A stretch of DNA of 35,867 nt, taken from the IMG/VR virus record IMGVR_UViG_3300044951_001004, positions 1 through 35,867 of that record; one strand, 5' to 3'. Positions 2 to 27,572 of this stretch are shown in pieces. Source of the DNA: a virus. Below the pieces are notes generated by a model. That model had not been told where the DNA came from, searched no databases, and worked only from the letters and a program-made list of their open reading frames with translations. The position numbers and the translations under genes were made by a program. Position 1 is the first letter of the stretch, and each line of letters begins with the position of its first letter.

Positions 2-376
2 ACGTCGGGTACAAATGGAACGAGCGGAACGAATGGTTCGAGTGGAACGAGTGGCACGAACGGAACGTCGGGTACAAATGGAACGAGCGGAACGAATGGT
101 TCGAGTGGAACGAGTGGCACGAACGGAACGTCGGGTACAAATGGAACGAGTGGAACGAATGGTTCGAGTGGAACGTCCGGTACCAACGGGTCGAGTGGAA
201 CGTCCGGAACTCGCGGAACATCTGGCACCAACGGTTCAAGCGGAACGAGTGGCACGAACGGTTCAAGTGGAACCTCTGGCACTAACGGGTCGAGTGGAAC
301 TTCGGGTACCAACGGAACGTCGGGTACAAATGGAACGAGCGGAACGAATGGTTCGAGTGGAACGTCCGGTACATCA
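2..376 (+). repeat. Collagen-like Gly-X-Y coding repeat with a 63-bp period
   Basis: The coding sequence repeats in 9-nt steps (one Gly-X-Y triplet). The first copies are near-identical 63-bp units (21 residues, 7 triplets) starting at about 1, 64 and 127, after which the order of triplets becomes irregular. X is almost always Thr or Ser, Y is Ser, Asn or Thr, and there is no proline. Such an array can expand or contract in multiples of 9 bp without breaking the frame. Confidence 0.9.
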
Positions 377-607
377 TTATCCATCTCCGGAACAAATCGA
401 CTGGTAAAAATCTCTGGCACAAACACTATATCATCAAGCAATTTCTTGTATGATGACGGCACTAACCTTGGTATTGGTACAATTACACCGAATGCAAAAT
501 TGGATGTAAATGGAAATACAATCATAACAGGATCATTGACTGTTACAGGCACAATAGCTGCGGCTACGCCAGATTTCTCTCCAATATTTATGATGATGGG
601 GGCATAA
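2..607 (+). CDS. Collagen-like phage fibre/adhesin, C-terminal part (5' end outside window)
   Basis: The reading frame is open from the first complete codon at base 2 to a TAA at 605-607, so only about the last 201 residues are present. The first ~125 residues are an uninterrupted Gly-X-Y array built from GTS, GTN and GSS triplets. A short linker follows, then the motif NLGIGTITPNAKLDVNG and a tail ending in MMMGA. The NxGIGTxxPxAxLDVxG motif is common near the ends of phage tail fibres, often before an S74 chaperone, but no chaperone domain follows here. The same motif and repeats occur in the giant fibre at 27573. The protein is probably a trimeric virion fibre; its N-terminus and attachment point are not visible. 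It lies 53 bp upstream of a glycosyltransferase operon, which makes it a candidate glycosylation substrate (inference). Confidence 0.85.
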   Translation, partial: TSGTNGTSGTNGSSGTSGTNGTSGTNGTSGTNGSSGTSGTNGTSGTNGTSGTNGSSGTSGTNGSSGTSGTRGTSGTNGSSGTSGTNGSSGTSGTNGSSGTSGTNGTSGTNGTSGTNGSSGTSGTSLSISGTNRLVKISGTNTISSSNFLYDDGTNLGIGTITPNAKLDVNGNTIITGSLTVTGTIAAATPDFSPIFMMMGA

Positions 608-624
608 TTATAGTAAATTATTGC

Positions 625-652
625 TTGACAATCTATGTTATAGTTATATAAT
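625..652 (+). promoter_or_regulatory. Sigma70-like promoter in front of the glycosylation cassette
   Basis: TTGACA at 625-630 and TATAAT at 647-652 both match the bacterial sigma70 consensus exactly, separated by 16 bp. Transcription would begin near 659, only about two bases before the ATG at 661, so the message would be almost leaderless. The overlapping string TATAGTTATA (639-648) is also one base away from the TATATTTATA element found before other genes here, so it could instead belong to that class. Confidence 0.55.
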
Positions 653-660
653 GGCGGAGA

Positions 661-2781
661 ATGAGTAATTTAAATGTTTGCGCACACACTTCCTATATAG
701 GAGTAACGGGTCTAAATAATCATTTTAGACATTTTTTAAGAGAATTATCTAAGCATTGCAACCTAAAAGCGCGCAATTTCACCGTAGGTGAGACGTGGGG
801 AGGAAATAATACTCCACACGACAAGGAGCCATATCTAACAGAAACAGATAAGAAAATTCTATACAAACAAACTTTGTGGGATAATGGTGTACGTAAGGAT
901 TATTCAATATATGAACAACCTACGGAACCATTCGATGTAAATTTGGTAATAGAAATTGTAGACGGGTTCTACTTCTACGATAGCTATAAAGGACCAAAGA
1001 TTGCATATATGGTATGGGAATCTACCAGACTTCCACAGCACTTCTTTGACCGTATCGTAGGATATGATGAGATTTGGGTAGCCAGCAATTGGCAAAAAGA
1101 ATGTATGGTAAAACAAGGAATGTCGGAAGCAAAACTACAGGTTGTTCCGGCGGGTGTTGAATCCGAAGTATTTTTTCCGGAGAATATAGAGTTTGATGAA
1201 TATTATAAAGATGGACGATTTAAATTTGTAGTTTTTGGTCGCTGGGAGTATAGAAAATCCACAACTGAAATAATTCGGACATTTCTCGCAACGTTTGGCC
1301 GAGATGAGCCAGTAGACTTAATTATATCAGTAGACAATAGGTTCTCCCAAGATGAATTTAAAACTACCGAAGAAAGGCTTGCACATTTCGGGATTGAAGA
1401 CTCGCGTATAAAAATATTACATTTTACATCCCGCGAAGACTATATAAAATTCATAAAAAAGGGGCACGTTTTTCTTTCTTGTGCTCGCGGAGAAGGTTGG
1501 AATTTGCCATTGATAGAGGCGATGGCATGTGGAACTCCTGTGATATATTCTAATTGCAGTGGCCAGCTGGAATTTACAAAAAATCGAGGATTGCCAGTAA
1601 GAATTATGGGAGAGAAGATTTCTCCGGTGTGTTCCGGGGATTTTTATGAGCCGGATTTTTCACATCTGGGTGAAGTGATGCGCGATGCATATAAAAATTA
1701 CGATTCGCATAAAACTCGGGCCATGTTATATTCTCCCGATATTCGGCGAGAATATAGCTGGGAAGCAGTGGGGGAAATTGGAGCCACCAAACTTAAAAAT
1801 TTCAATTCCAGCAGAAAAATAAATGCGGCCAAGAAAAAACTAAAGATTTTATATATAGCCCAACATTTATCTACGGGCGGGGCTCCACAGTACTTGCTCA
1901 AAAAAATACAATTACTTAACGACGAATTTGAGGTGTACTGTGTCGAATATAACTTCATTGCGTCGGAGTATGTAGTACAGCGCGATGCAATCATAGGTCT
2001 TTTGGGTGACAGGTTTACTAGTATTGGGGATAGACCCAAAGAGGATTTGCTGGAAATAATAAAAAATATTTCTCCGGACGTGATTCATTTAGAAGAATTC
2101 CCGGAATCCTTCGTTCGTTCGGACATAGCAAAGACTATTTATAGAAAGGATAGAAATTATCTATTATTTGAGAGCTATCACGGGATTTATTTTAAACCCG
2201 AAGAAAAGGTATTTTTCCCAGATAAGTTTTTGTTTGTGTCTGAATATCAGGCCGATATTTATAAGCAATTCGGAGTGCCGTACAGTATCGTAGAATATCC
2301 TATAGATATATCTGAGCCAGACAAGGTAAATTCAAAGAAATCTCTAGGACTTGACCCGGAATATAAACATATCATACAAGTAGGTCTGTTTGCTCCATGG
2401 AAAAATCAAGCTGAGACAATAGAACTTGCTCGGGCTCTGACTGGTAAGAAGGTCAAATTCCACTTTATAGGAAATCAAGCGTCAAATTTCGAGCAGTATT
2501 GGAAACCTATTATGGAAGCCCTTCCTAATAATTGTGTTATTTGGGGAGAAAGAAAAGACGTGGATACGTTTTGCCAAGCGGCAGATTTAATGATATTTCC
2601 ATCTAAAATGGAGACCTCCCCTCTAGTTATACGCGAAGCAATTTCGTGGAAATTGCCTTGTCTTATACACAATTTACCAGCATATAAAAACATGTATGCG
2701 AAATATAGTAATGTAAAGTACTTGACACCGGGAGATTTTACAACTAATATCAATCTAATTAAAAGTGAATTATATCTATGA
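661..2781 (+). CDS. Double-domain glycosyltransferase (two GT4/GT-B modules)
   Basis: This 706-residue protein appears to contain two GT-B glycosyltransferase modules. The first (about 1-385) carries a GT4-type nucleotide-sugar signature near residues 275-295, with GEGWNLPLIEAMACGTPVI including the E-x7-E motif. The second starts near residue 393 (KILYIAQHLSTGGAPQYL, an acceptor-side glycine loop) and has its own E-x7-E-like stretch, ETSPLVIREAISWKLPC, near residue 650. No signal peptide or membrane segment is visible, so it should act in the cytoplasm. A usable Shine-Dalgarno is not clear: GGAG sits only a base or two from the ATG. The stop overlaps the next start (ATGA, 2778-2781), so the two are translationally coupled. 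The donor and acceptor sugars cannot be read from sequence. The fusion of two GT4 units suggests sequential addition of two sugars to one glycan (inference). Confidence 0.88.
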   Translation: MSNLNVCAHTSYIGVTGLNNHFRHFLRELSKHCNLKARNFTVGETWGGNNTPHDKEPYLTETDKKILYKQTLWDNGVRKDYSIYEQPTEPFDVNLVIEIVDGFYFYDSYKGPKIAYMVWESTRLPQHFFDRIVGYDEIWVASNWQKECMVKQGMSEAKLQVVPAGVESEVFFPENIEFDEYYKDGRFKFVVFGRWEYRKSTTEIIRTFLATFGRDEPVDLIISVDNRFSQDEFKTTEERLAHFGIEDSRIKILHFTSREDYIKFIKKGHVFLSCARGEGWNLPLIEAMACGTPVIYSNCSGQLEFTKNRGLPVRIMGEKISPVCSGDFYEPDFSHLGEVMRDAYKNYDSHKTRAMLYSPDIRREYSWEAVGEIGATKLKNFNSSRKINAAKKKLKILYIAQHLSTGGAPQYLLKKIQLLNDEFEVYCVEYNFIASEYVVQRDAIIGLLGDRFTSIGDRPKEDLLEIIKNISPDVIHLEEFPESFVRSDIAKTIYRKDRNYLLFESYHGIYFKPEEKVFFPDKFLFVSEYQADIYKQFGVPYSIVEYPIDISEPDKVNSKKSLGLDPEYKHIIQVGLFAPWKNQAETIELARALTGKKVKFHFIGNQASNFEQYWKPIMEALPNNCVIWGERKDVDTFCQAADLMIFPSKMETSPLVIREAISWKLPCLIHNLPAYKNMYAKYSNVKYLTPGDFTTNINLIKSELYL

Positions 2782-5525
2782 AGTACGAGCTAATTGACAG
2801 TTATAAAAATGCAATGCTTAGTCCTACAGACGTGGGAGACATACACAATAATATACGAATCAGCTTCGTAGATGGCCCAAAAGTCAATATAACCGGGGAT
2901 ATTCCGGAAGAATATACAGTCGATTTTATAGACTTGGATAAGAACTCTATCACCTATTCTACCACTATAAAAAATAATATGTGGTGTGCAGATAACACGA
3001 AATATTTTGTAAATTGGAAAGTTGTCGTGAAACTCGGTTCTACGGTGGTAAAAGAAGAAAAATTAACATTAGAAAATAAACCGGTAAAAGTAGTGTTAGA
3101 TACACAATCAATTGGGGATTTGATTGCTTATATTGGAGCAGTAAACGAATTCCAATTTAAACATAAATGTCAATTACATTGCGTCGTTTTTAGCGAAGTG
3201 ATGCGTAACATATTTATAGAAAATTATAAAAATATATCTTTTTCCGGTGTAAATGAGCGGGATGAAGACTATTATGCGGCATACAAGATAGGTTGGTTTT
3301 CGAATTGGCAAGGTCGTGCAAGACGTAACCCTCAACATATGTGTTTGGCAAATATTGCAAGCGATATACTAGGATTTGGAATGGTAGATTTCAAACCGAC
3401 GTTTGCATTTGATAGGTCAAAGAAGCATGGCGATAAAAAATATGTATGTATTGGAATGCAATCTACCGCGCAATTCAAGTACTGGAACAATAAGACGGGG
3501 TGGGACGAAGTTGTTAGATACTTAAAACAACTTGGATATGAGGTGTGGTGCATAGATAGACACAGTTCGTATGGAAGTAAAGAGTCTATGAACTATATGC
3601 CGAGAGGAGCGGTCGATAAGACGGGGGATTTCCCACTCGAAGTTCGCATGGAACAACTGAGTGGGGCTGACTTTTTCATCGGGCTAAGTTCTGGTCTATC
3701 ATGGATTGCATGGACAGTTGGAATTCCGGTAATATTGATTAGTGGAGTGGGTGACAGATTTACAGAGTTTTTCACGCCACACAGAGTTATAAATAAAAGC
3801 GTGTGTCACGGATGCACAAACGATGACACTACCAAATTCGATAAAGGAAATTGGATGTATTGTCCCCGAAAGAAAAATTTCGAGTGCACCACACAAATCA
3901 GCTCTGAAATGGTCATTAAAGAAATTGACAAATTGCAAACTCCATTCTACAGAAACACAATACACAAATTCCAGTGGGGAAGCCGGGTGACAACTGGCCA
4001 AAAGGAATTGTTATATAGAGAAATATTCTTGGACAATGTATATGAATCTATGTTTGAAGTTCAAGACGGAGATATTGTTATGGACATTGGCGCACACGTT
4101 GGCGCATTTTCATGTGGCGCATTTAGAAAGAAGCCAAAGCTTGTCGTGGCAGTCGAACCAAGTGCAATTAGGTCCGAAGTATTAAAGAAAAATCTAGAAG
4201 GATTGCCGGTCATCGTAGTAAACAAAGGCGTATCAAAAGAGCCTCAATTTATAAAAGATGGATTGGTGTATGACTGTGTGGTTGAGGATTTCACGACGGC
4301 TCCATTATTAGACATAATGGCGGAGGCTAAGATTGACAAAATAGATTTCATGAAGATTGACTGTGAGGGTGGGGAATATGATATATTCACGGTTGAAAAC
4401 AGAGATTGGATTATGAAAAATGTCAAGAAAGTTGCTGGTGAGTGGCATCTAGAAGATGAACCCAGAACCGAGGCATTCCGTAAATTTAGAGATACTTATC
4501 TAGTTACCATTAATAACTACGAAGTTCGTAGTGTAGATGGCGTAGATATAAAATGGGATTTATTCAATGAACATTTCCTAGAATATTACGAAGAAATTCT
4601 AATTTATATGGATAATCGGCCATCTGATGAAATTGCTGCCGAGAAACAAAAGAAAGTAAGTTTGGTAGTAAATACGCCTCCGCCAAAAATTGATAATTCG
4701 CCAGAAGCAAGACAGTCTACAAAATTAATAACCGACCCATCTTTTTATAATAATCTGTTTAATTTGAAAGGTAAAACCGCAGTCGTCACTGGGGCGGGTG
4801 GGCATTTGGGCGCATCTATTTGCATGGGACTGGTGGCACAAGGTGCAAAAGTGTATGCTATTGGTAGAGATGTATCAAAAATAAAAGATAAGTTATTAAC
4901 AGCGGAAAATTTTCTAAAAGATAATATTATACCAACCGTATGCGACGTGACAGACAGGAGTCAGTTCCAATCGGTCATAGACAATATAGGCGACGTAGAT
5001 ATTTTAGTAAATAATGCGTTCAACGAAAAAAGAAAACCGTTCGAACAATTGACAGATGCAGACTGGTCTACTGGCATGGATAACATTCTCACTCAGCAAT
5101 TCATGTGCTGTCAGGTAGTTTTACCAAAAATGACCAAGAAAAATTATGGCAATATAATTAATATTGCGTCCATATATGGAATGATTGGAATAGACCAACG
5201 TGCATATCAAGTTGTACCAAGTTCGACCGCGTTTTATTGTGCAGCAAAAGCGGCATCTATTCAACTGACCAAAGAACTTGCAGTTCAATATGCCGATAAA
5301 GGTATAAGAGTAAATTGTATAAGTCCGGGCCACTTTCCTAAACCCCCAGCAGACGCGGCGAATGCAAATCCACAGTATGTACGTGGGCTATCCGACATGG
5401 TACCAATGAAACGTGTTGGCTGCGCCGACGAAATTGCTGGTGGGGCAGTATTCTTGGCATCCGACGCCTCGTCATATGTAACAGGACACAATCTTATAAT
5501 TGATGGTGGAAGAACTATTTGGTAA
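2778..5525 (+). CDS. Tri-modular fusion: autotransporter-type O-heptosyltransferase (GT9-like) + FkbM methyltransferase + short-chain dehydrogenase
   Basis: Three modules can be seen in 915 residues. (1) About 100-390 resembles the autotransporter strand-loop-strand O-heptosyltransferase family (TibC/BAHT type). It has DTQSIGDLIAYIGAV near 108 and SGADFFIGLSSGLSW near 295-309. A four-cysteine group follows (C343, C346, C362, C370), with the context CHGC, FDKGNWMYCP and FECT, matching the iron-binding finger of that family. (2) About 400-610 is an FkbM-family SAM methyltransferase: DIGAHVG (436-442), VEPS (459-462) and MKIDCEGGEYDI (525-536). (3) About 655-915 is a classical SDR: TGAGGHLG (671-678), NNA (745-747), S798 and Y820-x3-K824, so the catalytic set is intact. 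The known family transfers heptose from ADP-heptose to Ser in adhesin repeats. The target here is unknown, but Ser/Thr-rich fibres are encoded nearby. I know of no standard protein with this three-way arrangement. Confidence 0.85.
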   Translation: MKYELIDSYKNAMLSPTDVGDIHNNIRISFVDGPKVNITGDIPEEYTVDFIDLDKNSITYSTTIKNNMWCADNTKYFVNWKVVVKLGSTVVKEEKLTLENKPVKVVLDTQSIGDLIAYIGAVNEFQFKHKCQLHCVVFSEVMRNIFIENYKNISFSGVNERDEDYYAAYKIGWFSNWQGRARRNPQHMCLANIASDILGFGMVDFKPTFAFDRSKKHGDKKYVCIGMQSTAQFKYWNNKTGWDEVVRYLKQLGYEVWCIDRHSSYGSKESMNYMPRGAVDKTGDFPLEVRMEQLSGADFFIGLSSGLSWIAWTVGIPVILISGVGDRFTEFFTPHRVINKSVCHGCTNDDTTKFDKGNWMYCPRKKNFECTTQISSEMVIKEIDKLQTPFYRNTIHKFQWGSRVTTGQKELLYREIFLDNVYESMFEVQDGDIVMDIGAHVGAFSCGAFRKKPKLVVAVEPSAIRSEVLKKNLEGLPVIVVNKGVSKEPQFIKDGLVYDCVVEDFTTAPLLDIMAEAKIDKIDFMKIDCEGGEYDIFTVENRDWIMKNVKKVAGEWHLEDEPRTEAFRKFRDTYLVTINNYEVRSVDGVDIKWDLFNEHFLEYYEEILIYMDNRPSDEIAAEKQKKVSLVVNTPPPKIDNSPEARQSTKLITDPSFYNNLFNLKGKTAVVTGAGGHLGASICMGLVAQGAKVYAIGRDVSKIKDKLLTAENFLKDNIIPTVCDVTDRSQFQSVIDNIGDVDILVNNAFNEKRKPFEQLTDADWSTGMDNILTQQFMCCQVVLPKMTKKNYGNIINIASIYGMIGIDQRAYQVVPSSTAFYCAAKAASIQLTKELAVQYADKGIRVNCISPGHFPKPPADAANANPQYVRGLSDMVPMKRVGCADEIAGGAVFLASDASSYVTGHNLIIDGGRTIW

Positions 5526-5531
5526 TTTTTC

Positions 5532-5568
5532 TTGACATATAGATTTAAAAGTTTACTATATTTCTATA
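5532..5568 (+). promoter_or_regulatory. Possible promoter before the zinc-type dehydrogenase
   Basis: The 44-bp gap holds TTGACA at 5532-5537 and, 16 bp on, a weak TACTAT (5554-5559). Overlapping this is TATATTTCTATA (5557-5568), which resembles the recurring TATATTTATA element with two inserted bases. It ends directly before the ATG at 5570 and no Shine-Dalgarno is visible, so transcripts would have almost no leader. Confidence 0.35.
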
Positions 5569-5569
5569 C

Positions 5570-6580
5570 ATGAAAGCTGCCGTTTTATATAAAAAGAACG
5601 AACCGTTAGTTATAGAAGATGTCGAACTACCAAACACTCTAGACTACGGTCAAGTTATAGTAAAGGTGTTAGTTAGCGGTCTTTGTGGAGCACAACTCCA
5701 AGAGATAGCCGGACTAAAAGGAAATGAAAAATTCATGCCACATCTTATCGGTCACGAGGGATGTGGCATTGTTGAGGCAATAGGACCGGGAGTAACCAAA
5801 GTAAAATTTGGTGATAAGGTAGTTATGCATTGGAGAAAGGGGAGTGGAATAGAAGCCAAGTTTCCTGTTTATAGGTTGAATGGAAAGTCCATGTCTGGTG
5901 GGAAGATTACGACATTGTCGGAATATAGCGTGGTATCGGAAAATAGATTGACCAGAGTGGCGCTCGATACTCACAACGATTTTGTTGCTCTCTTGGGATG
6001 TGGTTTATCAACCGGATTTGCCGTCGTAAACAAAGATGCAAATATAAAATTTGGAGAGAGCGTATTGGTTTTGGGGTGTGGTGGAGTGGGATTAAATTGT
6101 ATTTATGCGGCAAGTTTATCTCAGGCATATCCAATATATGGAGTGGACATTGCACCAGAAAAAGAAGGTATAGTAACTAGAAACGGAGGCATCTTTTTTA
6201 ATGGAAATGAATATGCAGACCTTCCGGGTCCATTCGACTGCATCATAGACACCACCGGCAACATGGCTTTGGTTTCTCGATACTTGCCTCTGCTTTCCGA
6301 CCGGGGGCGTTGCATATTAGTGGCCCAACCGAAACCAGATTCACAACTCACGGTAATCAATCCGGGAAAACTATTCTCCACCGGAGGCCAATCCATTCGT
6401 ACTACTCAAGCTGGTGGATTTGACCCGGATTCCGATATTCCCAGATATTTAAATCTCTACAAGAACCAACTAATAAAGTTACAAAACTTAATCACAGATA
6501 GACACGGTCTGTTAAACATCAACTCCGCAGTTGACCAGCTCCGCTCGGGTAAAAGTGGAAGAATAATGATTGATATTTAA
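5570..6580 (+). CDS. Zinc-type medium-chain dehydrogenase/reductase (MDR, alcohol/polyol dehydrogenase-like)
   Basis: A 336-residue MDR protein. The N-terminal catalytic domain shows likely zinc ligands C39 (SGLCGAQ), H62-E63 (LIGHEGCG) and C144 (ALLGCGLSTG). The Rossmann domain begins at VLVLGCGGVG (about 165-174), with an acidic residue at VDI (193) that favours NAD(H). The four-cysteine structural-zinc lobe usually found around residues 90-110 in alcohol dehydrogenases is missing. It sits between the heptosyltransferase fusion and the transketolase pair on the same strand (3 bp to the next gene), so I infer an oxidation or reduction step on a sugar. The exact substrate is not recognisable. 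Confidence 0.85.
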   Translation: MKAAVLYKKNEPLVIEDVELPNTLDYGQVIVKVLVSGLCGAQLQEIAGLKGNEKFMPHLIGHEGCGIVEAIGPGVTKVKFGDKVVMHWRKGSGIEAKFPVYRLNGKSMSGGKITTLSEYSVVSENRLTRVALDTHNDFVALLGCGLSTGFAVVNKDANIKFGESVLVLGCGGVGLNCIYAASLSQAYPIYGVDIAPEKEGIVTRNGGIFFNGNEYADLPGPFDCIIDTTGNMALVSRYLPLLSDRGRCILVAQPKPDSQLTVINPGKLFSTGGQSIRTTQAGGFDPDSDIPRYLNLYKNQLIKLQNLITDRHGLLNINSAVDQLRSGKSGRIMIDI

Positions 6581-6583
6581 AAT

Positions 6584-7309
6584 ATGTTAAACGAACGCTC
6601 AAAACAGTTACGTAGAGACTTATATAAGCTCTCGAAAGCAAATGGTGGCTATCATTACGGTGGCACATTTTCAACAATTGAAATTTTGTCAAATTTATAT
6701 GACAGAGTCCTTGGTAAAGACGATAAGTTCATTTTGAGCAAAGGACACTCTTGCTGGGGGCTTTATGTAATTTTGCGAGAGAAGGGGTTGAATCCTACAC
6801 TGGAAGGACATCCACACTTGGATATACCAAATGGAATACATTGGACAACTGGTAGCGAGGGTCACGGATTTCCTGCCGGTATGGGAATGGCATTCGCAAA
6901 AAAGAAATTGAAAAAGAATGGGCGTGTGTTTGTATTAATGGGAGACGGAGAATGCCAAGAAGGAACTACTTGGGAAAGCTTGTTATTGGGAGGATTTCAC
7001 AAGTTGAACAACCTTACAATAATAGTCGATTTTAACAAAATTCAAGGCTCCGGTTATGTCAGCGATATCTTACCAGTAGATAATATCGCAGCAGTTGCGC
7101 AGTCTTGTGGGTGGGACGTTTCTATAATAGATGGACACGCCGAGTCCGAGATATTGGCGGCGCTGCTAGCCACCAGCGATAAGCCGCGTTTTGTTGTAGC
7201 AAATACAGTGAAAGGAAAAGGTGTGGATTTTATGGAGAACAAGCCCGAATGGCACTCCAAGTGGCCGAACGCAGCGGAAGAAGCTGAGATTCTTAAACAA
7301 TTATCCTAA
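6584..7309 (+). CDS. Transketolase, N-terminal (TPP pyrophosphate-binding) subunit
   Basis: This 241-residue protein matches the first domain of transketolase. FILSKGHSCWGLY lies near residues 46-58, GSEGHGFPAGMGMA near 90-103, and the thiamine-diphosphate/Mg motif is MGDGECQEG with a downstream N (FNKIQGSG). Transketolases move two-carbon ketol units between sugar phosphates and can produce sedoheptulose-7-phosphate, the entry point of bacterial ADP-heptose synthesis. The partner half follows 4 bp downstream, so the pair should form a heteromeric enzyme. Split transketolases occur in bacterial surface-sugar gene clusters (established). The exact product in this phage is inference. Confidence 0.9.
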   Translation: MLNERSKQLRRDLYKLSKANGGYHYGGTFSTIEILSNLYDRVLGKDDKFILSKGHSCWGLYVILREKGLNPTLEGHPHLDIPNGIHWTTGSEGHGFPAGMGMAFAKKKLKKNGRVFVLMGDGECQEGTTWESLLLGGFHKLNNLTIIVDFNKIQGSGYVSDILPVDNIAAVAQSCGWDVSIIDGHAESEILAALLATSDKPRFVVANTVKGKGVDFMENKPEWHSKWPNAAEEAEILKQLS

Positions 7310-7313
7310 ATAT

Positions 7314-7796
7314 ATGAGAAAAGCATTTGGTAAAACTATAGTAACTCTAGGAAAGAAAGACCCAAATCTATTCTTGCTTACCGGAGACGTGGTCCAAGAA
7401 ATGGACGAATTCAAGCAACAATTCCCGGACAGGTTTTATAACCTTGGACTGTGTGAGCAGAGTATGATTAGTATGGCAGCTGGGATGTGTTTAGAGGGCA
7501 TTCGCCCCGTGGTATACTCCATCACCCCATTTCTACTGGAACGCCCGTTTGAGCAGATTAAAATCGACATTGACGAGCAATGTTTGCCGGTGACATTAAT
7601 TGGATTCTCGGACTATCCTACACATGGCCCTACACACCGACCATTGAATGCGCCGGGATTATGTGCACTATTCAAGAATATTGTCAGCTTTTTCCCGAGA
7701 AATTCGGAGGAAACCGAGAGAGCGATGATTGAGGCGCATCTATTGAAGAAACCGGCAATAATTTGTCTTAAAAAAGACGGCAAGCATCTAATATGA
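7314..7796 (+). CDS. Transketolase, pyrimidine-binding subunit (minimal, no C-terminal domain)
   Basis: I chose the ATG at 7314 because the protein homology starts there (MRKAFGKTIVTLGKKDPN); the frame is open further upstream but only as a shadow of the preceding gene. The 160 residues cover the Pyr domain. The conserved Glu that activates thiamine is in LGLCEQSM (about 45-52), and THGPTHRPLNAPG (about 104-116) corresponds to the substrate-side GPTHQ loop. Usual split C-subunits run to about 300 residues because they carry an extra C-terminal transketolase domain, which is absent here. The two genes together total only about 400 residues. The stop overlaps the start of the kinase gene (ATGA). 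Confidence 0.88.
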   Translation: MRKAFGKTIVTLGKKDPNLFLLTGDVVQEMDEFKQQFPDRFYNLGLCEQSMISMAAGMCLEGIRPVVYSITPFLLERPFEQIKIDIDEQCLPVTLIGFSDYPTHGPTHRPLNAPGLCALFKNIVSFFPRNSEETERAMIEAHLLKKPAIICLKKDGKHLI

Positions 7797-8524
7797 GTAA
7801 ACGAATTTTAGTGATAGGTGACAGTTGTCGAGACGTGCATGTTTATTGCTCATCAACTCGTATGTGTCCAGACAAGCCAGTACCAATCCTACAGATTGTT
7901 GACCAGAACGACAATCCCGGCATGGCAAAGAATGTGCATCGAAATATCAAAACGACCATAGATGATTGTGACATTGTGACCAATTCTAATTGGTATAATA
8001 TCACAAAAACACGATATGTCCACAGTTCCACTAATCATATGTTTTTTAGATTAGATTCGGCGGAAGAAATGCAACGTATTAACTTGGGCGATATTAATTA
8101 TTTATACGATTATATTGTAATATCCGATTACGATAAGGGATTTTTGACCGAGTCGGACATTGAGGATATTTCTAAAAATCATACCAACGTGTTTTTAGAC
8201 ACCAAAAAAGTATTGGGGGCTTGGACTAAGTATGTTAAATTTATTAAAATAAATGACCACGAATTTGCTAGGTCTAAGAGTGTTATAACCTCCGAGATGG
8301 CCGGTAAAATAATTCAAACATCCGGGGCAGACGGATGTTATTATCTCGGGGAGAATTTCCCAGTCGAGCGAGGAGACGTTATTGACGTATCCGGGGCCGG
8401 GGATTCTTTCTTGGCCGGGTTGGTGATAGAATATAGCAAAAATGAAGATATCCGGGCGGCAATCAAATTCGCGAACAAGTGTGCAAGTAAAGTGGTGAAG
8501 CATCGCGGTGTATCTGTCATATGA
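7793..8524 (+). CDS. PfkB/ribokinase-family sugar kinase, HldE kinase-domain-like
   Basis: A 243-residue kinase. It opens with RILVIGDSCRDVHVY, has the substrate-side region PVPILQIVDQNDNPGMAKNV, a YIVISDYDKGFL stretch, and the PfkB signature DVSGAGDSFLAG with the catalytic Asp near residue 203. This order (GD...PVP...PGxAxNV...SDYxKG...GAGD) is that of the kinase half of HldE (D-glycero-beta-D-manno-heptose-7-phosphate kinase). The nucleotidyltransferase half of HldE is absent, and the protein is shorter than the usual ~310-residue kinase domain. It overlaps both neighbours by 4 nt (ATGA). I infer that it phosphorylates a heptose or similar sugar phosphate for the glycosylation cassette; another hexose or heptose substrate cannot be excluded. 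Confidence 0.82.
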   Translation: MSKRILVIGDSCRDVHVYCSSTRMCPDKPVPILQIVDQNDNPGMAKNVHRNIKTTIDDCDIVTNSNWYNITKTRYVHSSTNHMFFRLDSAEEMQRINLGDINYLYDYIVISDYDKGFLTESDIEDISKNHTNVFLDTKKVLGAWTKYVKFIKINDHEFARSKSVITSEMAGKIIQTSGADGCYYLGENFPVERGDVIDVSGAGDSFLAGLVIEYSKNEDIRAAIKFANKCASKVVKHRGVSVI

Positions 8525-8655
8525 ACTTGTACGTAACCCACAGCGATGAGAATTACGTATCAGTCGCCGAGAAGTTGTTCGATAGTCTTAAATTAACTTC
8601 TACCAACAATATAATTTATTACACGGGTGTGAGTGGTTGGGGCCGTGGGCAATAA
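8521..8655 (+). CDS. 44-residue ORF at the end of the sugar cassette, possibly a truncated gene
   Basis: It starts with an ATGA overlap with the kinase gene, which is how other genes in this operon begin, and ends at TAA 8653-8655. It starts MNLYVTHSDENYVSVAEKLF and continues to YYTGVSGWGRGQ. The beginning looks like the first beta-alpha-beta of a larger enzyme that then stops abruptly, so it may be the residue of a deleted sugar-processing or glycosyltransferase gene. I do not recognise a full family, and it could be untranslated. Confidence 0.45.
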   Translation: MNLYVTHSDENYVSVAEKLFDSLKLTSTNNIIYYTGVSGWGRGQ

Positions 8656-8724: not shown

Positions 8725-9357
8725 ATGAAAAAAGCCAGCGGTAAAAAAAATATTGATATAGTACAAGATTATTTAAACGGAGAACGCCCATTTGTCCAAG
8801 TCGGATATGCGGGAGAAAAAGACAAATACATCATTCGAAAATTGGGAGAAACGTGGACGGATTCGAGTGGAAAAGAATGGGTTGAGAAGGAAAGCGGCCC
8901 ACAGAGTACAACCCGAGTCATGGATATAGTTCGACTGGAAACTAACGACAAGTGTTCGGGGTGTAAGCGAGAACTTCGTTGGGGTAACAAACTGGACAGA
9001 AAGATGTTTTTCAAGACGCAGAAGTGCTTCGACTGCTTGGTCGAAGAAGAGACCCAACTAAAAATAAAAGGTAAATATAAATTGTACGAGACGCGCAAAC
9101 TTCTGGAAAACGAGATTTCATATTTGAACGATGTCAGACAAAAATTGAAGGATGGTAAGAAGTATTTGGAAGAGAATAAGATAATCACGTTCGTAAACTC
9201 CAACGGTCTCGTGGAAGAGTGGAAGAACGAAGCCCGCCTAGAACTTCTAGAAGGCATTGAAAAAGACTTTGTTACATGCTTAAAAAAACTTAAGTCTGCC
9301 CAAAAGGAGCTAACAAAGACCACCAATGCAATTAACGAAGTTCTTGCCACAAAGTGA
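8725..9357 (+). CDS. Unknown phage protein with four-cysteine zinc finger and coiled coil
   Basis: This 210-residue protein has a CxxC-20-CxxC arrangement (C77, C80, C101, C104; contexts KCSGCK and KCFDC) that should bind one zinc ion. From about residue 110 to the end it is highly charged and rich in Lys, Glu and Leu, consistent with a long helix or coiled coil. It ends inside the start of the next gene (32-nt overlap) and lies two genes before the large terminase. A zinc-finger plus coiled-coil protein here could be a packaging accessory or small-terminase analogue, but no gp16 family motif is visible. The function is unknown. Confidence 0.75.
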   Translation: MKKASGKKNIDIVQDYLNGERPFVQVGYAGEKDKYIIRKLGETWTDSSGKEWVEKESGPQSTTRVMDIVRLETNDKCSGCKRELRWGNKLDRKMFFKTQKCFDCLVEEETQLKIKGKYKLYETRKLLENEISYLNDVRQKLKDGKKYLEENKIITFVNSNGLVEEWKNEARLELLEGIEKDFVTCLKKLKSAQKELTKTTNAINEVLATK

Positions 9358-9709
9358 TCTCATCGACGGACTTGCTCTCCGCGTAAAAAGCAGATATCCG
9401 GAAAAGGGCGCGTGTGAATTCATAGCTAAGGAATTGGTTGCCGAACTATCGGCTAGGGGGATTATCGCTCACCACGTGGAGGGAAATTTCCATCTAGACG
9501 AACCCGCATCGTATCTGTTTATTAGTCCTCTTGATGAGGTCAATGACGAATATACAATAGATCATAATTGGGTAGAAGTCGAGGGAGTCGTGATAGATGC
9601 CGCCGCATCGCAGTTCAGAAAATACGTATACGAGGAAATTCCGGAAGTTGTTATGGCCAATCATACTCATCCGCTATATACAAAATACGAACCATTAAAC
9701 TATGTCTGA
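9326..9709 (+). CDS. Small Cys-His-Asp protein, possibly transglutaminase/cysteine-protease-like
   Basis: 127 residues. A candidate triad is visible: C30 in GACEFIAKELV at the start of a helix, H80 in DHNWVEVEG, and D91 in VVIDAAASQF. The order Cys-helix, His-strand, Asp-strand (HxWVEV...VIDxxxxQF) is that of transglutaminase-like and related papain-fold proteins. The gene overlaps the upstream gene by 32 nt and the terminase by 8 nt, so it is transcribed and probably translated with them. Its role next to terminase is unknown. The enzymatic assignment rests on motif spacing only. Confidence 0.65.
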   Translation: MQLTKFLPQSDLIDGLALRVKSRYPEKGACEFIAKELVAELSARGIIAHHVEGNFHLDEPASYLFISPLDEVNDEYTIDHNWVEVEGVVIDAAASQFRKYVYEEIPEVVMANHTHPLYTKYEPLNYV

Positions 9710-11354
9710 GCCTATCAAATCTAAAAATATCAAGGATGTCATTCGCGAAGAATACATAAAATGCGCGAAAGGCCCCATATATTTCATGAAGAAGTATGTG
9801 AAAATCCAGCATCCGACGAGGGGCACTTTGGCATTCTTAACATACCCATTCCAAGATTTGGCGTTGGAAGATTTCGTCAAACATAATCAAAATATAATTC
9901 TAAAATCCCGACAGATGGGAATTACTACTCTCGTATCCGGGTACGCTCTATGGTTGATGACATTTCATTCGGACAAGGAAATATTATGTCTCAGTATTAC
10001 ACAGGAGACTTCGAAAGCGATTGTTACCAAGGTTAGATTCGCGAATGATAATTTACCAAGTTGGCTAAAAATTCCCGCGACGGAAGATAACAGACTGTCT
10101 CTGAAATTAAAGAATGGGTCACAAATAAAAGCCGCATCGAGTGCCGGTACATCCGGTCGTTCGTCCGCGCTGTCTTTGTTAATCGTCGACGAAGCTGCAT
10201 TCATTGAAGGGATAGAAGAAATCTGGCTGTCCGCGCAGTACACCCTATCGACTGGTGGTAAGGCTATTATTCTATCTACTCCGAATGGCGTGGGAAATTT
10301 CTTTCATAAGTTATGGGTACAATCCGAGCAAGGTTTGAACGATATGAATCGTATAAGTTTGCCGTGGCACTTACACCCAGAAAGAGACCAAAAATGGCGA
10401 GATGAGCAAACTAAACTATCGGGAGAAAAAGGCGCTGCACAGGAATGTGATTGTGAATTTTCTACTTCGGGTAACACCGTGGTAGATATCCCAACATTAC
10501 AATGGTACGAAAAAACTCAATCGCGGGAGCCACACGAAAAGAGAATGTTTGATAAAGGATATTGGATATTTGAGTATCCCCAGCCCGGTAAAAGTTATAT
10601 GATATCTGCGGACGTTGCGCGAGGAGATGCTGCGGATTTCTCGGCATGTCAAGTACTTGACATAGAAACCATGGAACAAGTTGCAGAATATAAAGGAAAA
10701 CTTCCTACGAAGGAATATGCAAGATTGCTGATGACGATTGGTACCGAATATAACACAGCACTTGTTGTAGTAGAAAATGCCAATGTTGGTTGGGCGGTAA
10801 TTCAAGAGATTATAGATAATAATTATCCCAACTTATTTTATAGTTCAACAGATTTGCAATATGTTGACGTCGAGGCTCAAATGACAAACAAAATAAATTC
10901 CGAGGAAAGAAAGATGACTCCGGGATTTACCACGTCCAATAAGTCTAGACCATTATTAATATCAAAGCTTGAGAGCTATATAAGAAATAAAGAACCAATT
11001 CTACATAGCAAGCGGCTAATAGAGGAATTGAACGTATTTATATGGAAAGTCACGGGCTCATCTGCCAAGGCGGAGGCTATGACCGGATATAATGACGATT
11101 TAGTTATGTCGCTTGCAATTGGACTTTGGATAAGAGACGTTGCGCTGAGATTGCGCAAAGAAACCGACGCTGTTACTCGCGCTGTTATATCAAAGATAGG
11201 GTCAACGTCAAACGACCAAACAAAAAACTCAAGTGGGCCATTATTGAGGTCGGGTGGAACAAATCCATATGGAGTATATAATGACCCATGGCAAATGAAA
11301 ATTGGAGGACCGGGTGGCGGGCGGTCTCCAATAGATTTAAAATGGCTATTGTAA
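9702..11354 (+). CDS. 17: Terminase large subunit (T4 gp17-like DNA packaging motor)
   Basis: This 550-residue protein has both terminase activities. The ATPase part has Walker A-like SRQMGITT (69-76), Walker B LLIVDE with adjacent catalytic Glu (159-164) and the coupling motif LSTPNG (191-196). The nuclease part has an RNase H-like acidic set: D304 in SADVARGD, E358 in VVVENANVG, and the DD pair 465-466 in TGYNDDLVMSLAIG. It docks on the portal vertex, pumps DNA into the prohead and cuts the concatemer. Length is a little under T4 gp17 (610 residues). In T4, gp16, gp18 and gp19 are near gp17; here none is seen and the portal gene follows directly after 90 bp. Confidence 0.96.
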   Translation: MSEPIKSKNIKDVIREEYIKCAKGPIYFMKKYVKIQHPTRGTLAFLTYPFQDLALEDFVKHNQNIILKSRQMGITTLVSGYALWLMTFHSDKEILCLSITQETSKAIVTKVRFANDNLPSWLKIPATEDNRLSLKLKNGSQIKAASSAGTSGRSSALSLLIVDEAAFIEGIEEIWLSAQYTLSTGGKAIILSTPNGVGNFFHKLWVQSEQGLNDMNRISLPWHLHPERDQKWRDEQTKLSGEKGAAQECDCEFSTSGNTVVDIPTLQWYEKTQSREPHEKRMFDKGYWIFEYPQPGKSYMISADVARGDAADFSACQVLDIETMEQVAEYKGKLPTKEYARLLMTIGTEYNTALVVVENANVGWAVIQEIIDNNYPNLFYSSTDLQYVDVEAQMTNKINSEERKMTPGFTTSNKSRPLLISKLESYIRNKEPILHSKRLIEELNVFIWKVTGSSAKAEAMTGYNDDLVMSLAIGLWIRDVALRLRKETDAVTRAVISKIGSTSNDQTKNSSGPLLRSGGTNPYGVYNDPWQMKIGGPGGGRSPIDLKWLL

Positions 11355-11444: not shown

Positions 11445-13391
11445 ATGGCTGAACAAAAAGACTTATTCACGAGATTAAAGAAGATGTTTTCGACGAACGT
11501 TATTGCCCGTCATAAGGGCGGCAAAACGTTGAAGATTATAGACACGGATAACGTTCAGTACGCGACGGATAGAAACAGTCTGCGAGACAGATTTAATAGA
11601 CTGAGAAGTTCTACTTATAATTTACACAATAGAGACATGTCCATGGCATATCAATCGTCTCGATTGGAGTTGTTCAGAGACTACGACGTGATGGATATGG
11701 ACCCAATCATCGCCTCAGCATTGGATATTTACTCAGATGAATGTCTGGTGCCAAGTGAATTTGGGCAAGTGTTAACCATTCGCTCAAAAAACGAAAATAT
11801 AAAAAAAATACTAGAAAACTTGTTTTATGATATTCTCAACATCGAATTTAATATGTGGAGTTGGACTCGTAACATGTGTAAGTATGGAGATTTTTTCCTA
11901 CGGTTGGAAATATCTCCAGAGTATGGTGTGCACGGGGTACATCCTATTAGCCCGTATGAACTTACACGCGTCGAAGGTTCCGACCCCAAAAACCTAAGCT
12001 ACGTAAAATATCAACACGACGGATTGGGCGGAGGAATGGAATACGAAAATTTCGAAATCGCGCACTTCCGGCTGATTTCGGATAGTAACTTTTTGCCGTA
12101 TGGTAAAAGCATGATTGAGCCCGCCCGTCGCGTTTGGAAGCAATTAAGTCTGGCGGAAGACGCCATGTTAATTCACCGCATAATACGCGCACCGGAGAAG
12201 AGAATTTTCAAGATTGACGTCGGCAACATTCCCCCGGCGGAGATTGATTCGGCGATGCAAAAAATTATAGGACAAGTCAAAAAAGTCCCATATATTGATG
12301 AGAAGACCGGAGATTATAATTTGCGGTTTAATCTAAATAACATGATGGAGGATTTCTATCTACCAGTTCGCGGGGGAGATAGCGGAACTACAATTGATAC
12401 TTTGCCCGGAATGGAATTTACGGGTATTGATGATTTGGAATATATTCGTAACAAGATGATGTCCGCATTAAAGATTCCAAAGGCATTTCTTGGATATGAA
12501 GAAGGAATTTCTGGAAAAGCTACGTTGGCCGCAGAAGACGTTCGATTTGCCAGAACCATAGGTAGAATTCAACGCATCATTGTCTCAGAATTGACCAAGA
12601 TTGCAATTGTTCACTTGTATGTTCAGGGCTATCAAGACGCATCTCTCGTAGATTTCGAATTGGAACTAAGCAATCCATCCACGATATTTGAACAAGAGAA
12701 AATCGAAATCTGGCAAAGTAAAGTCAACGTCTCCAAAGACATGATGGAATCGAATCTATTCAGCAAGCGTTGGATTTATTCGAAAGTATTTAAGATGTCC
12801 GACGAAGATATTGAAGAATTGCAGACCGATGTTATAAAGGATAAGAAAGGTGAGTGGAGAATGGCACAAATTACTGAAGAAGGCAATGACCCAGCAACAA
12901 GTGGTCAAAAAATGTCAGACGGTGCGCCGGGAGATGTGGGTGGAGGCGGAGGGCCAGATATGGGAAATGAACCGTTAGATATGGGGGCCGACAATACCGA
13001 ATTACCAAGTCCGGGAGAAGGCGAACCAAAAGGAGGAGATTTGCCGCCGTTGGAAGAAGTTGAGGAAGTGGACGGAGAAGAACTTGACGAAGAAACCCGC
13101 AAAGAACGCGAACGTGGAATTAGACCAAGCCAAGAAGGAAAAAAACAATTATATAGCGACACATTTACAAAAACTCGTGGAGAAGATATCCTCGGAAACA
13201 AGGGAAATGTTGAACATTCCAAGAGTGATAGACGAACCCGACATATATATAGAGGAGCATCTTTGGACGAAGAATTAAAGAATATAAAGAGGTCTCTTAA
13301 GGATAGGTACGAGAAGAAGACCAGATTAATCTCAGAGAATCTCTCCATATTAGACGAGTCTAATATACAAGATGAAGATAAACCGATCTAA
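11445..13391 (+). CDS. 20: Portal vertex protein (T4 gp20-like)
   Basis: This 648-residue protein aligns by eye with gp20-type portals. It has YDVMDMDPIIASALDIYSDE (about 85-104), ISPYELTRVEG (about 168-178), the clip/stem region with IHRIIRAPEKRIFKIDVGN (about 244-262), and GISGKATLAAEDVRFARTI with the following helix (about 354-385). The portal forms the dodecameric DNA channel that nucleates head assembly and docks terminase. T4 gp20 is 524 residues. The extra length is mostly a C-terminal low-complexity region rich in Gly, Pro, Asp and Glu (about 490-560), followed by a basic tail that may reach into the head or core. The gene stands between terminase and the small head-protein cluster, as expected for this module. 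Confidence 0.93.
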   Translation: MAEQKDLFTRLKKMFSTNVIARHKGGKTLKIIDTDNVQYATDRNSLRDRFNRLRSSTYNLHNRDMSMAYQSSRLELFRDYDVMDMDPIIASALDIYSDECLVPSEFGQVLTIRSKNENIKKILENLFYDILNIEFNMWSWTRNMCKYGDFFLRLEISPEYGVHGVHPISPYELTRVEGSDPKNLSYVKYQHDGLGGGMEYENFEIAHFRLISDSNFLPYGKSMIEPARRVWKQLSLAEDAMLIHRIIRAPEKRIFKIDVGNIPPAEIDSAMQKIIGQVKKVPYIDEKTGDYNLRFNLNNMMEDFYLPVRGGDSGTTIDTLPGMEFTGIDDLEYIRNKMMSALKIPKAFLGYEEGISGKATLAAEDVRFARTIGRIQRIIVSELTKIAIVHLYVQGYQDASLVDFELELSNPSTIFEQEKIEIWQSKVNVSKDMMESNLFSKRWIYSKVFKMSDEDIEELQTDVIKDKKGEWRMAQITEEGNDPATSGQKMSDGAPGDVGGGGGPDMGNEPLDMGADNTELPSPGEGEPKGGDLPPLEEVEEVDGEELDEETRKERERGIRPSQEGKKQLYSDTFTKTRGEDILGNKGNVEHSKSDRRTRHIYRGASLDEELKNIKRSLKDRYEKKTRLISENLSILDESNIQDEDKPI

Positions 13392-16292: not shown

Positions 16293-16913
16293 ATGAGTAA
16301 ACAACTTCTAGTAGATTTCATGCCTTTCGACATTACACCAGAAGTGTTGAACGAAGCCAAAAACCACACCTCCGGACCATTCACCTTGAAAGGTCCATTG
16401 CAAAAAGCGGGAGAAAAGAACCACAACGGTCGTATATATCCACGCCCAGTTTTGGAGCGCGAGGTTGAAAAATACCAACAGATTATTAAAGAACGCAGAG
16501 CATTGGGCGAGCTGGACCACCCAGAATCCTCTGTCATCAATTTGAAAAATGTCTCTCACAACGTGGTGGATTGTCATTGGCAAGGTGACACTGTCATGGG
16601 GACTATAGAGATTCTTACAACTCCCAGTGGAAATATTGCCAGAGATTTAATTCGCAACAATATTCGCATTGGCATTTCTAGTCGTGGGCTCGGTTCTACT
16701 CGTCAAATCTCGGAAAATACTGTTGAAGTTCAAGAGGACTTTGAGTTGCTGTGCTTTGACCTTGTATCTTCTCCGTCCACACGCGGAGCATATATGAATT
16801 TAAATGAAGGTAGATTGCGTGAGAACAAAAACTTTTTGATAGACCGCACCGAAATCGACAAGTATATGAAAATTGAAGGATTGGTAAGAGATATTTTATC
16901 CGAGATTCGTTAA
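16293..16913 (+). CDS. 21: Prohead core protease (T4 gp21-like)
   Basis: This 206-residue protein is close to T4 gp21 in length (212). It has the family blocks GELDHPES with the probable catalytic His76, GTIEILTTPSGNIARDLI, and IGISSRGLGS with the probable catalytic Ser129 or Ser130. The enzyme sits in the scaffolding core, matures itself, then cuts head proteins after (L/I)-x-E and digests the scaffold before DNA packaging (established for T4). A self-cleavage candidate is V-L-N-E21|A. Many neighbouring proteins carry such sites. A good Shine-Dalgarno (AAAGGAAAG) precedes the ATG. Confidence 0.93.
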   Translation: MSKQLLVDFMPFDITPEVLNEAKNHTSGPFTLKGPLQKAGEKNHNGRIYPRPVLEREVEKYQQIIKERRALGELDHPESSVINLKNVSHNVVDCHWQGDTVMGTIEILTTPSGNIARDLIRNNIRIGISSRGLGSTRQISENTVEVQEDFELLCFDLVSSPSTRGAYMNLNEGRLRENKNFLIDRTEIDKYMKIEGLVRDILSEIR

Positions 16914-27545: not shown

Positions 27546-27555
27546 TATATTTATA
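27546..27555 (+). promoter_or_regulatory. Candidate late promoter TATATTTATA before the giant fibre gene
   Basis: Exact copy of the element ending 17 bp before the ATG at 27573. The 114-bp gap also contains the 12-bp palindrome TTTTGGCCAAAA (27475-27486) and no clear terminator. Confidence 0.5.
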
Positions 27556-27572
27556 TAATATAATAAACATCC

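Follow-up and report, generated by a model that had tools for sequence, protein, structure and literature searches.

What does a tailed phage do with a run of sugar-active enzymes encoded directly behind one of its own fibres? The question is raised by IMG/VR record IMGVR_UViG_3300044951_001004, a 35,867-nucleotide stretch of viral DNA analysed here over its whole length (hereafter, the window), which is a 35.9-kb record of an aquatic phage, T4-like and tailed as judged by its head genes. Its plus strand carries, in order, the 3′ end of a collagen-like fibre gene (2–607), a protein with two GT4 glycosyltransferase modules, a fusion of a TibC/Aah-type O-heptosyltransferase (BAHT) module with FkbM and SDR modules, an MDR dehydrogenase, a two-piece thiamine pyrophosphate (TPP) enzyme, a PfkB-family kinase and the T4-like head genes. 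The enzyme genes (661–8524, hereafter the cassette) thus lie on a single strand, 3′ of the fibre gene end and 5′ of the terminase gene; all had been named in a preliminary description of the window made from its letters, and all were recovered on that strand, within positions 2–8655, by family profile scores. Homology and gene association together suggest that the cassette probably directs O-glycosylation of the phage's own Ser/Thr-rich collagen-like fibres.

The BAHT module (2778–3965, plus strand, end approximate) is the N-terminal part of the fusion, a 915-residue open reading frame (ORF; 2778–5525), and matches TIGR04414 with 322.4 bits (cut-off 200) over residues 23–385. A sequence search of the PDB returned two TibC sequences as the sole hits, the match to 4rap being full length (E 1.9e-69). 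In TibC, D110 is the candidate catalytic base, T226, K230, R286 and W305 bind the sugar, and C339, C342, C358 and C370 form an iron finger (passages of eLife 03714, PMC4358343); in a manual reading of the alignment to 4rap, each of these residues, including all four cysteines, is kept in the window module. Searching viral contigs with an alignment of eight BAHT sequences confirmed at least 572 relatives, of which the best 80 (79 distinct loci) were used; the locus set, 88 of 89 after removal of one without a domain of 300 bits, was reduced at 90% identity to 55 representatives. D110, K230 and W305 are present in all 55, whilst T226 and each of the iron-finger cysteines are present in 54. With a predicted model of the module (pLDDT 75, pTM 0.74; residues 342–369 of low confidence), the top 21 chains found by Foldseek were all TibC (E 1e-28 to 8e-24; query TM-score ~0.65, root-mean-square deviation ~7), and other GT9 and lipopolysaccharide (LPS) heptosyltransferase structures matched far more weakly (8e-9 to 3e-6). 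By sequence, predicted fold and conserved catalytic residues, the module belongs to the TibC-type family. Enzymes of this family attach heptose to Ser/Thr of autotransporter repeats, with no consensus site known (passages of PMC3835316 and PMC4358343). Autotransporter domains were absent from the hits in our scans of the window ORFs, where the neighbour of the BAHT gene is instead the collagen-like fibre; bacterial genomes scanned with a close BAHT alignment gave three loci (36–38%), none with collagen.

Two fibres are proposed as the substrates. That at 2–607 (plus strand) is truncated by the window edge and retains 41 Gly-X-Y triplets at 8–376 (17 GTS, 15 GTN, 8 GSS and 1 GTR); its counterpart in a near-identical contig (L004) has at least 1022 residues and 315 triplets. 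The second is a giant collagen-like fibre, open at the window end (27573–35867, plus strand), with two runs of 132 and 161 triplets (27747–28934 and 31674–33122); the preliminary description had recognised it, although we count 293 triplets where it gave 291. Amongst the 586 letters at X and Y of the giant fibre, 242 are Ser, 236 Thr and 93 Asn, and Pro is almost absent. Minus-strand shadow ORFs of the collagen DNA occupy 27551–29194 and 31627–33156. In the isolated Microcystis phage Mel-JY01 (L079, PP395634), positions 2–3052 hold a 1016-residue open plus-strand frame with (GTS)n collagen repeats which is not annotated as such; the annotation places minus-strand hypothetical proteins at 1–651 and 739–2298, and a plus-strand one for the tail only (2519–3052).

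The preliminary description had proposed searching related genomes for co-occurrence of the cassette with such fibres. Our 50-record test set comprised 24 records of at least 40 kb from the BAHT matches, one from a further search, 20 selected by capsid protein, two marine records selected for the TPP enzyme and three named phages; the capsid-selected records are 20 of 21 of at least 40 kb, the 21st (L175) being the record of L100, which was already included. A second set consisted of 17 further records selected for the TPP enzyme, six further records, five named cyanophages and two re-tested records. Repeats of one phage are kept in the counts except where clustering is named. Collagen (E 1e-3) was found in 27 of 32 BAHT-positive records and in one of 18 BAHT-negative ones (Fisher p 4e-8), the latter being G037 at 9.6e-4; 26 of the 50 records pass the BAHT family cut-off. 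When records with identical BAHT scores are counted as one, the figures become 23/27 versus 1/18, and within the 21 capsid-selected records of at least 40 kb they are 4/5 and 1/16 (p 0.004). The one BAHT-positive record without collagen in this capsid-selected group, G003, is probably a fragment, since 98% of the 31-mers in its fetched stretch are shared with G004, which has 41 collagen matches.

The association extends to the composition of the collagen. Collagens of BAHT-positive phages have mostly Ser, Thr and Asn at X and Y and are almost free of Pro; those near loci with FkbM only are built of Thr, Gln and Ala with 0–9% Ser, and six of six such records tested were BAHT-negative. Two collagen-selected sets were defined by repeat pattern: of the 80 loci listed per pattern, out of at least 120 stretches each, all those in records of 30 kb or more were taken, giving 39 GTSx4 and 34 GTQx4 records. 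Five of the 39 GTS records have under 60 triplets in the stretch fetched, and L323 is poor in Ser. BAHT is present in 11/39 GTS-type versus 1/34 GTQ-type records (p 0.004), in 9/17 versus 1/18 when records of at least 50 kb are taken (p 0.003), and in 9/25 versus 1/28 after clustering of related records (p 0.004). In the sole BAHT-positive GTQ-type record the Ser content (0.13) exceeds that of every other record in the set. GT4 was detected in all 11 BAHT-positive GTS-type records, in many of which it shares an ORF with BAHT, versus four of the 28 BAHT-negative ones (three above cut-off); it occurs in eight of 34 GTQ-type records, seven above cut-off. Across these records BAHT goes with Ser-rich collagen. 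Regular occurrence of the cassette without any Ser/Thr-rich fibre, which the preliminary description had named as evidence against its proposal, is not what the BAHT half shows, 27 of its 32 records holding collagen.

Position and inheritance point the same way. Collagen lies in the flank of 14 distinct BAHT loci; its gene adjoins the BAHT gene in four of them (4–67 bp apart) and is separated from it by one gene in seven; the mean distance rank of collagen to the BAHT gene over the 14 loci is 0.22, against an expected 0.5. In a tree of capsid proteins, G043, which has both BAHT and collagen, groups with four records (40–99 kb) that have neither, in a clade with 100/100 support; the branching order within this clade does not allow gain to be told from loss. 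A five-gene block is present in G043 (FkbM-like, glycosyltransferase, GT4–BAHT, carbamoyltransferase-like and a 175-residue gene) and absent from G040, where the counterparts of the flanking genes (70.6% and ~66.5% identical) lie 168 bp apart. More than 30 kb from the block, past a gene with 55% identity between the two records, a collagen gene of at least 762 residues and 115 triplets lies in G043 where G040 has an unrelated 458-residue protein (Ser+Thr 18%). The gene before this fibre site is homologous to the window gene directly before the giant fibre (26115–27458, plus strand; PF16724 at 17.7 bits, below the cut-off of 25) in both G043 (204 bits) and G040 (235 bits), so the giant fibre of the window occupies the same site. 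G043 and G040 are a single pair, judged on possibly incomplete records; further cases on the capsid tree are Mel-JY01 and the window clade, the latter with L169, L171 and L177 (all positive for BAHT and collagen). The 546-residue gene that follows BAHT in G043 (L527, 11120–12760) is putatively carbamoyltransferase-like by its N-terminal sequence, and the annotations of P-SSM2 and S-CAM1 include Nol-like carbamoyltransferases.

Several observations weigh against the proposal that BAHT serves Ser-rich fibres. On the enzyme side, R286 is present in only 36 of the 55 representatives and 37 have Gly at position 300, so that some relatives may use a donor other than heptose. The thumb-tip residues F265/V266, which in TibC are required for the active dodecamer (passages of eLife 03714, PMC4358343), are E and S in the window module, so its ring may differ from the TibC dodecamer; in the region of the β-hairpin thumb that assembles the dodecamer, the model predicts short strands at 264–266 and 271–273. 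On the fibre side, 28 of the 39 GTS-type records lack BAHT on the available sequence. Six of them (L298, L305, L310, L336, L344 and L345) cluster with BAHT-positive records and may be fragments; L330, L340, L343 and L363 have long Ser-rich collagen, for which BAHT is either dispensable or missing from a fragmentary record. Collagen length in the GTS set does not differ significantly between BAHT-positive and BAHT-negative records (p 0.09), five of the 32 BAHT-positive records have no detected collagen, including the 636-kb LR756504, and 41 of the 55 representatives have none within the fetched flank. In three of the 14 loci (L073, L114 and L148) collagen is no nearer to BAHT than chance; the collagen near BAHT is Ser-poor in L114, its near twin L115 and L122 (Ser/Thr 0.01), and one BAHT-negative record, G068/L282, has Ser-rich collagen. 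The BAHT test did not include the records of seven capsid-selected loci with Ser-rich collagen (L168, L174, L179, L181, L185, L191 and L207). Finally, the p-values overstate independence, since records share ancestry and several repeat one phage.

The BAHT-positive records without collagen and the GTS-type records without BAHT would also suit an enzyme that acts on some other repeat protein of the virion or host, the association with collagen then reflecting shared hosts or habitats; the lack of any known consensus for the acceptors of TibC-type enzymes (passages of PMC3835316) speaks in the same direction. We consider this unlikely, although it is the alternative that survives best. It sits poorly with the immediate adjacency of BAHT and collagen in 4/14 loci, with the paired differences between G043 and G040, with the contrast between Ser-rich and Thr/Gln-rich collagens, and with the lack of an autotransporter domain hit in the window scans.

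Slightly less probable still is that the cassette alters the LPS or another surface glycan of the host during infection, with superinfection exclusion as a result. This has been proposed in print for glycosyltransferase genes beside tail fibres in the host-recognition cluster of pelagimyophages (passages of PMC7029224), and a heptosyltransferase in a huge phage from wastewater has likewise been read as LPS-related (PMC10747093, in part). The GT4, MDR, kinase and epimerase genes do resemble surface-polysaccharide genes, and they occur in cyanophage sugar blocks that lack BAHT. The key enzyme, however, is of the TibC protein O-glycosyltransferase type rather than that of WaaC/WaaF; BAHT tracks Ser-rich collagen and not tailed phages generally, and in G043 and G040 it differs together with a fibre encoded more than 30 kb away. 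Glycosylation of phage DNA against restriction by the GT4 modules and accessory enzymes, with BAHT incidental, is very improbable: the GT4 protein does score above the cut-off of the GT4-conflict family (PF20706) and DNA-modifying phage glycosyltransferases are known (cited in passages of PMC12619734), but families of nucleotide-modification enzymes were not among the hits beside the cassette in the window scans, and GT4 goes with BAHT in the GTS-type records (11/11 vs 4/28), though often in the same ORF.

If the cassette does glycosylate fibres, which of its genes form the core? Within the fetched flanks of the 55 distinct loci, a relative of the window GT4 protein is present in 42 and one of the FkbM module in 20, as against MDR in five, the kinase in five and the N-terminal half of the TPP enzyme in four; the core is therefore BAHT with GT4, often joined by FkbM, and the sugar enzymes are an optional addition. 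In relatives BAHT is fused to GT4, and the isolate Mel-JY01 has such a GT4–BAHT fusion one gene away from its (GTS)n ORF. The transketolase-like enzyme, MDR and kinase were considered as the core and rejected, being present in 4–5 of 55 BAHT loci, with records selected for the TPP enzyme lacking BAHT. In 19 such records (out of 20 listed with a length of 40 kb or more; several repeat one phage), BAHT above cut-off was found in none, and collagen in one, which is Ser-free and contains Pro; G053 and G057 have weak BAHT matches below the cut-off. The sugar-making half thus occurs regularly without a Ser/Thr-rich fibre, the pattern that the preliminary description had named as counting against its proposal, and in those phages it serves other ends. 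Smaller contigs of the window's own kind (L003–L007, all below 40 kb) have BAHT in five of five and both halves of the cassette, L007 being without MDR and kinase.

The same counts bear on the sugar donor. No match to GmhA, GmhB or heptose nucleotidyltransferase families was found among the 30 window ORFs scanned, the record being a fragment. Amongst the 32 BAHT-positive records, one has a match to GmhA (PF13580, which may overlook isomerases that are small and divergent, like the ones in cyanophage annotations) and four have a weak nucleotidyltransferase match (TIGR02199, below cut-off). The preliminary description had envisaged a possibly self-contained system in which the phage makes or enriches a heptose-like donor; with no complete ADP-heptose pathway by these counts, neither self-containment nor donor synthesis by the phage is supported, and the near-absence of the isomerase and nucleotidyltransferase makes host ADP-heptose the most likely donor. 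Its further suggestion, that the phage decorates its own fibres, keeps its support from the BAHT family and the collagen association, shorn of the self-contained donor supply. A heptose-type sugar is also hinted at by relatives of the cassette kinase in S-SM2, P-TIM68, P-SSM2 and S-CAM1, which adjoin genes annotated as phosphoheptose isomerase, heptose kinase/adenylyltransferase and nucleotide-sugar epimerase. P-SSM2 (L085) and S-CAM1 (L086) have a block of genes annotated as kinase, nucleotidyltransferase, phosphoheptose isomerase, ‘cysteine dioxygenase’ and epimerase between tail-fibre genes, without BAHT. In Synechococcus phage DSL-LC02 (L082, 7751–14195), a Thr/Gln-rich collagen-like gene adjoins an annotated β-mannosyltransferase and a pair of FkbM genes; these may form another set for fibre modification, one directed at Thr.

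Taken as a pathway, the fibre-glycosylation model would run as follows. In the infected cell the BAHT module would transfer a heptose-type sugar, most likely from host-made ADP-heptose, to Ser (perhaps also Thr) of the Gly-Thr/Ser-Ser/Asn repeats; the GT4 modules would extend it with further sugars, and the FkbM module may methylate a sugar hydroxyl. The SDR, MDR, TPP enzyme and kinase could produce or alter one of these sugars. In this scheme the acceptor, the donor and the sequence of steps are inferred, as is any advantage to the phage, be it a stiffer fibre, better binding to the host or shielding.

The assignments of the individual modules are as follows. The 706-residue GT4 protein (661–2781, plus strand, as are all cassette genes) has two PF00534 stretches (103.8 bits); it also matches PF20706 with 52 bits (cut-off 26), the best stretch being residues 183–370. 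Downstream of BAHT in the fusion, the FkbM-type methyltransferase module (4083–4410, residues 436–544) scores 31.9 bits with PF05050 against 22.7, and the SDR oxidoreductase module (4746–5525) scores 155 bits with PF13561 (cut-off 27) and 134 bits with PF00106. The zinc-type MDR dehydrogenase (5570–6580), an accessory sugar enzyme, is above cut-off with PF08240 (54.9 bits), marginally below it with PF00107 (31.6 bits, cut-off 31.8), and matches phrog_2640 with 253 bits; in S-SM2 and P-TIM68 a gene annotated as a zinc-containing alcohol dehydrogenase likewise stands before the TPP enzyme. The latter is transketolase-like and in two pieces, a TPP-binding half (6584–7309; PF00456 at 81 bits against 22), which is also a separate gene in L005, L006 and L007, and a pyrimidine-binding half (7314–7796; PF02779 at 71 bits against 27), whose ATG lies 5 bases past the end of the first gene. 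It had been called a split transketolase, of which the split is right; it has the N-terminal and pyrimidine domains but no C-terminal domain, and so is not a complete three-domain transketolase (168 bits with the best-scoring NCBIfam transketolase model, cut-off 488), and the corresponding enzyme is a single ORF (E1_dh and Transket_pyr) in S-SM2 (L083, 9978–11186) and L090 (14482–15675). In both of these MDR precedes and the kinase follows the small TPP enzyme, although in S-SM2 an additional gene separates the enzyme from the kinase. The window kinase (7793–8524) is of the PfkB family (PF00294 at 64 bits against 25.8; phrog_8133 at 281 bits); the earlier label ‘HldE-like’ is apt as a likeness, but at 98 bits it falls below the HldE cut-off of 345 (TIGR02198), and we file it as PfkB.

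The head genes that follow include the large terminase (9702–11354), portal (11445–13391), prohead protease (16293–16913) and major capsid protein (19845–21449), the last being 57.7% identical to that of Mel-JY01 and 56.8% to those of Flavobacterium phages of the immuto group. Megablast of window positions 1–25000 against phage records gave no matches. Small conserved ORFs (8725–9357 and 9326–9709) lie near the terminase in many relatives, whilst the cassette itself comes, goes or switches side; in L005 the homologue of ORF 8725–9357 sits 5′ of the cassette. A chance or artefactual origin of the cassette was considered and rejected, given long modules with matches above curated cut-offs (bar those named as under) and a gene order that is largely kept in L003–L006; the exceptions among L003–L007 are L007, without MDR and kinase, and L006, without SDR.

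A wider proposition, which we put forward tentatively and rate somewhat short of an even chance, is that a broad class of aquatic tailed phages (records to 735 kb) devotes a TibC-type enzyme to Ser-rich collagen-like fibres, which would then be densely O-glycosylated, that the sugar on Ser replaces the stabilising role of proline in these nearly Pro-free collagens, and that other enzymes serve the phages whose collagen is Thr/Gln-rich. Which bacteria a phage infects is decided by its fibres, whose biology is mostly read from protein sequence only. Should a large group of aquatic phages hyperglycosylate collagen-like fibres in this way, how a fibre binds its receptor, how stiff it is and how defences or antibodies recognise it may all depend on sugars invisible to genome annotation, phage sugar genes so far read as LPS-modifying auxiliary genes would gain a biochemical role, and the TibC family would extend beyond bacterial autotransporters. 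BAHT and its collagen-like neighbour would form a directly testable enzyme–substrate pair, and such a pair is available in an isolated phage (Mel-JY01).

If real, such a system would, as far as the surveyed literature shows, be the first to be described in which glycosylation is devoted to phage fibres; in the open-licence literature, partly surveyed, no pairing of a TibC-type enzyme with a phage fibre came to light, and a search on Mel-JY01 returned no paper. Virus-encoded glycosylation of virion or collagen proteins has precedents in the collagen glycosylation of Mimivirus and in the chloroviruses, which glycosylate their own proteins; these are viruses of eukaryotes and use other enzyme families. 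In phages, mycobacteriophage capsid and tail-tube proteins are reported to be glycosylated by phage glycosyltransferases (Freeman 2023, as cited in passages of PMC12619734 and PMC11256854). There, too, a phage places sugars on its own virion proteins; the targets, however, are capsid and tail-tube subunits, and neither BAHT nor a collagen fibre is mentioned in the citing passages.

The sugar blocks of T4-like cyanophages share the kinase (S-SM2, P-TIM68, P-SSM2 and S-CAM1) and, in S-SM2 and P-TIM68, the MDR and TPP enzymes with the window; unlike it, they have annotated phosphoheptose isomerase, heptose nucleotidyltransferase and nucleotide-sugar epimerase genes, BAHT in none of the four, and PF01391 collagen in P-SSM2 only. 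The E. coli prophage fibre EPclA is, like the window fibres, a Gly-X-Y phage fibre. According to passages of PMC3368898, the E. coli prophage collagens are rich in Pro and charged residues, in contrast to the Ser, Thr and Asn at X and Y and the near-absence of Pro in the window fibres; the same source names Thr glycosylation as a collagen stabiliser, not observed in recombinant EPclA. The nearest relatives of the key enzyme remain TibC and Aah (TIGR04414), with which it shares the full-length family match, the catalytic Asp, the sugar-site residues, the iron-finger cysteines and the predicted fold. It differs from both in being phage-encoded, in its fusion to FkbM and SDR (GT4 in relatives), and in having a collagen-like fibre as its neighbour with no autotransporter hit. 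It departs from TibC in its thumb-tip residues and at the Pro-300 position, where it has Ser, as does Aah, which accepts both ADP-heptoses.

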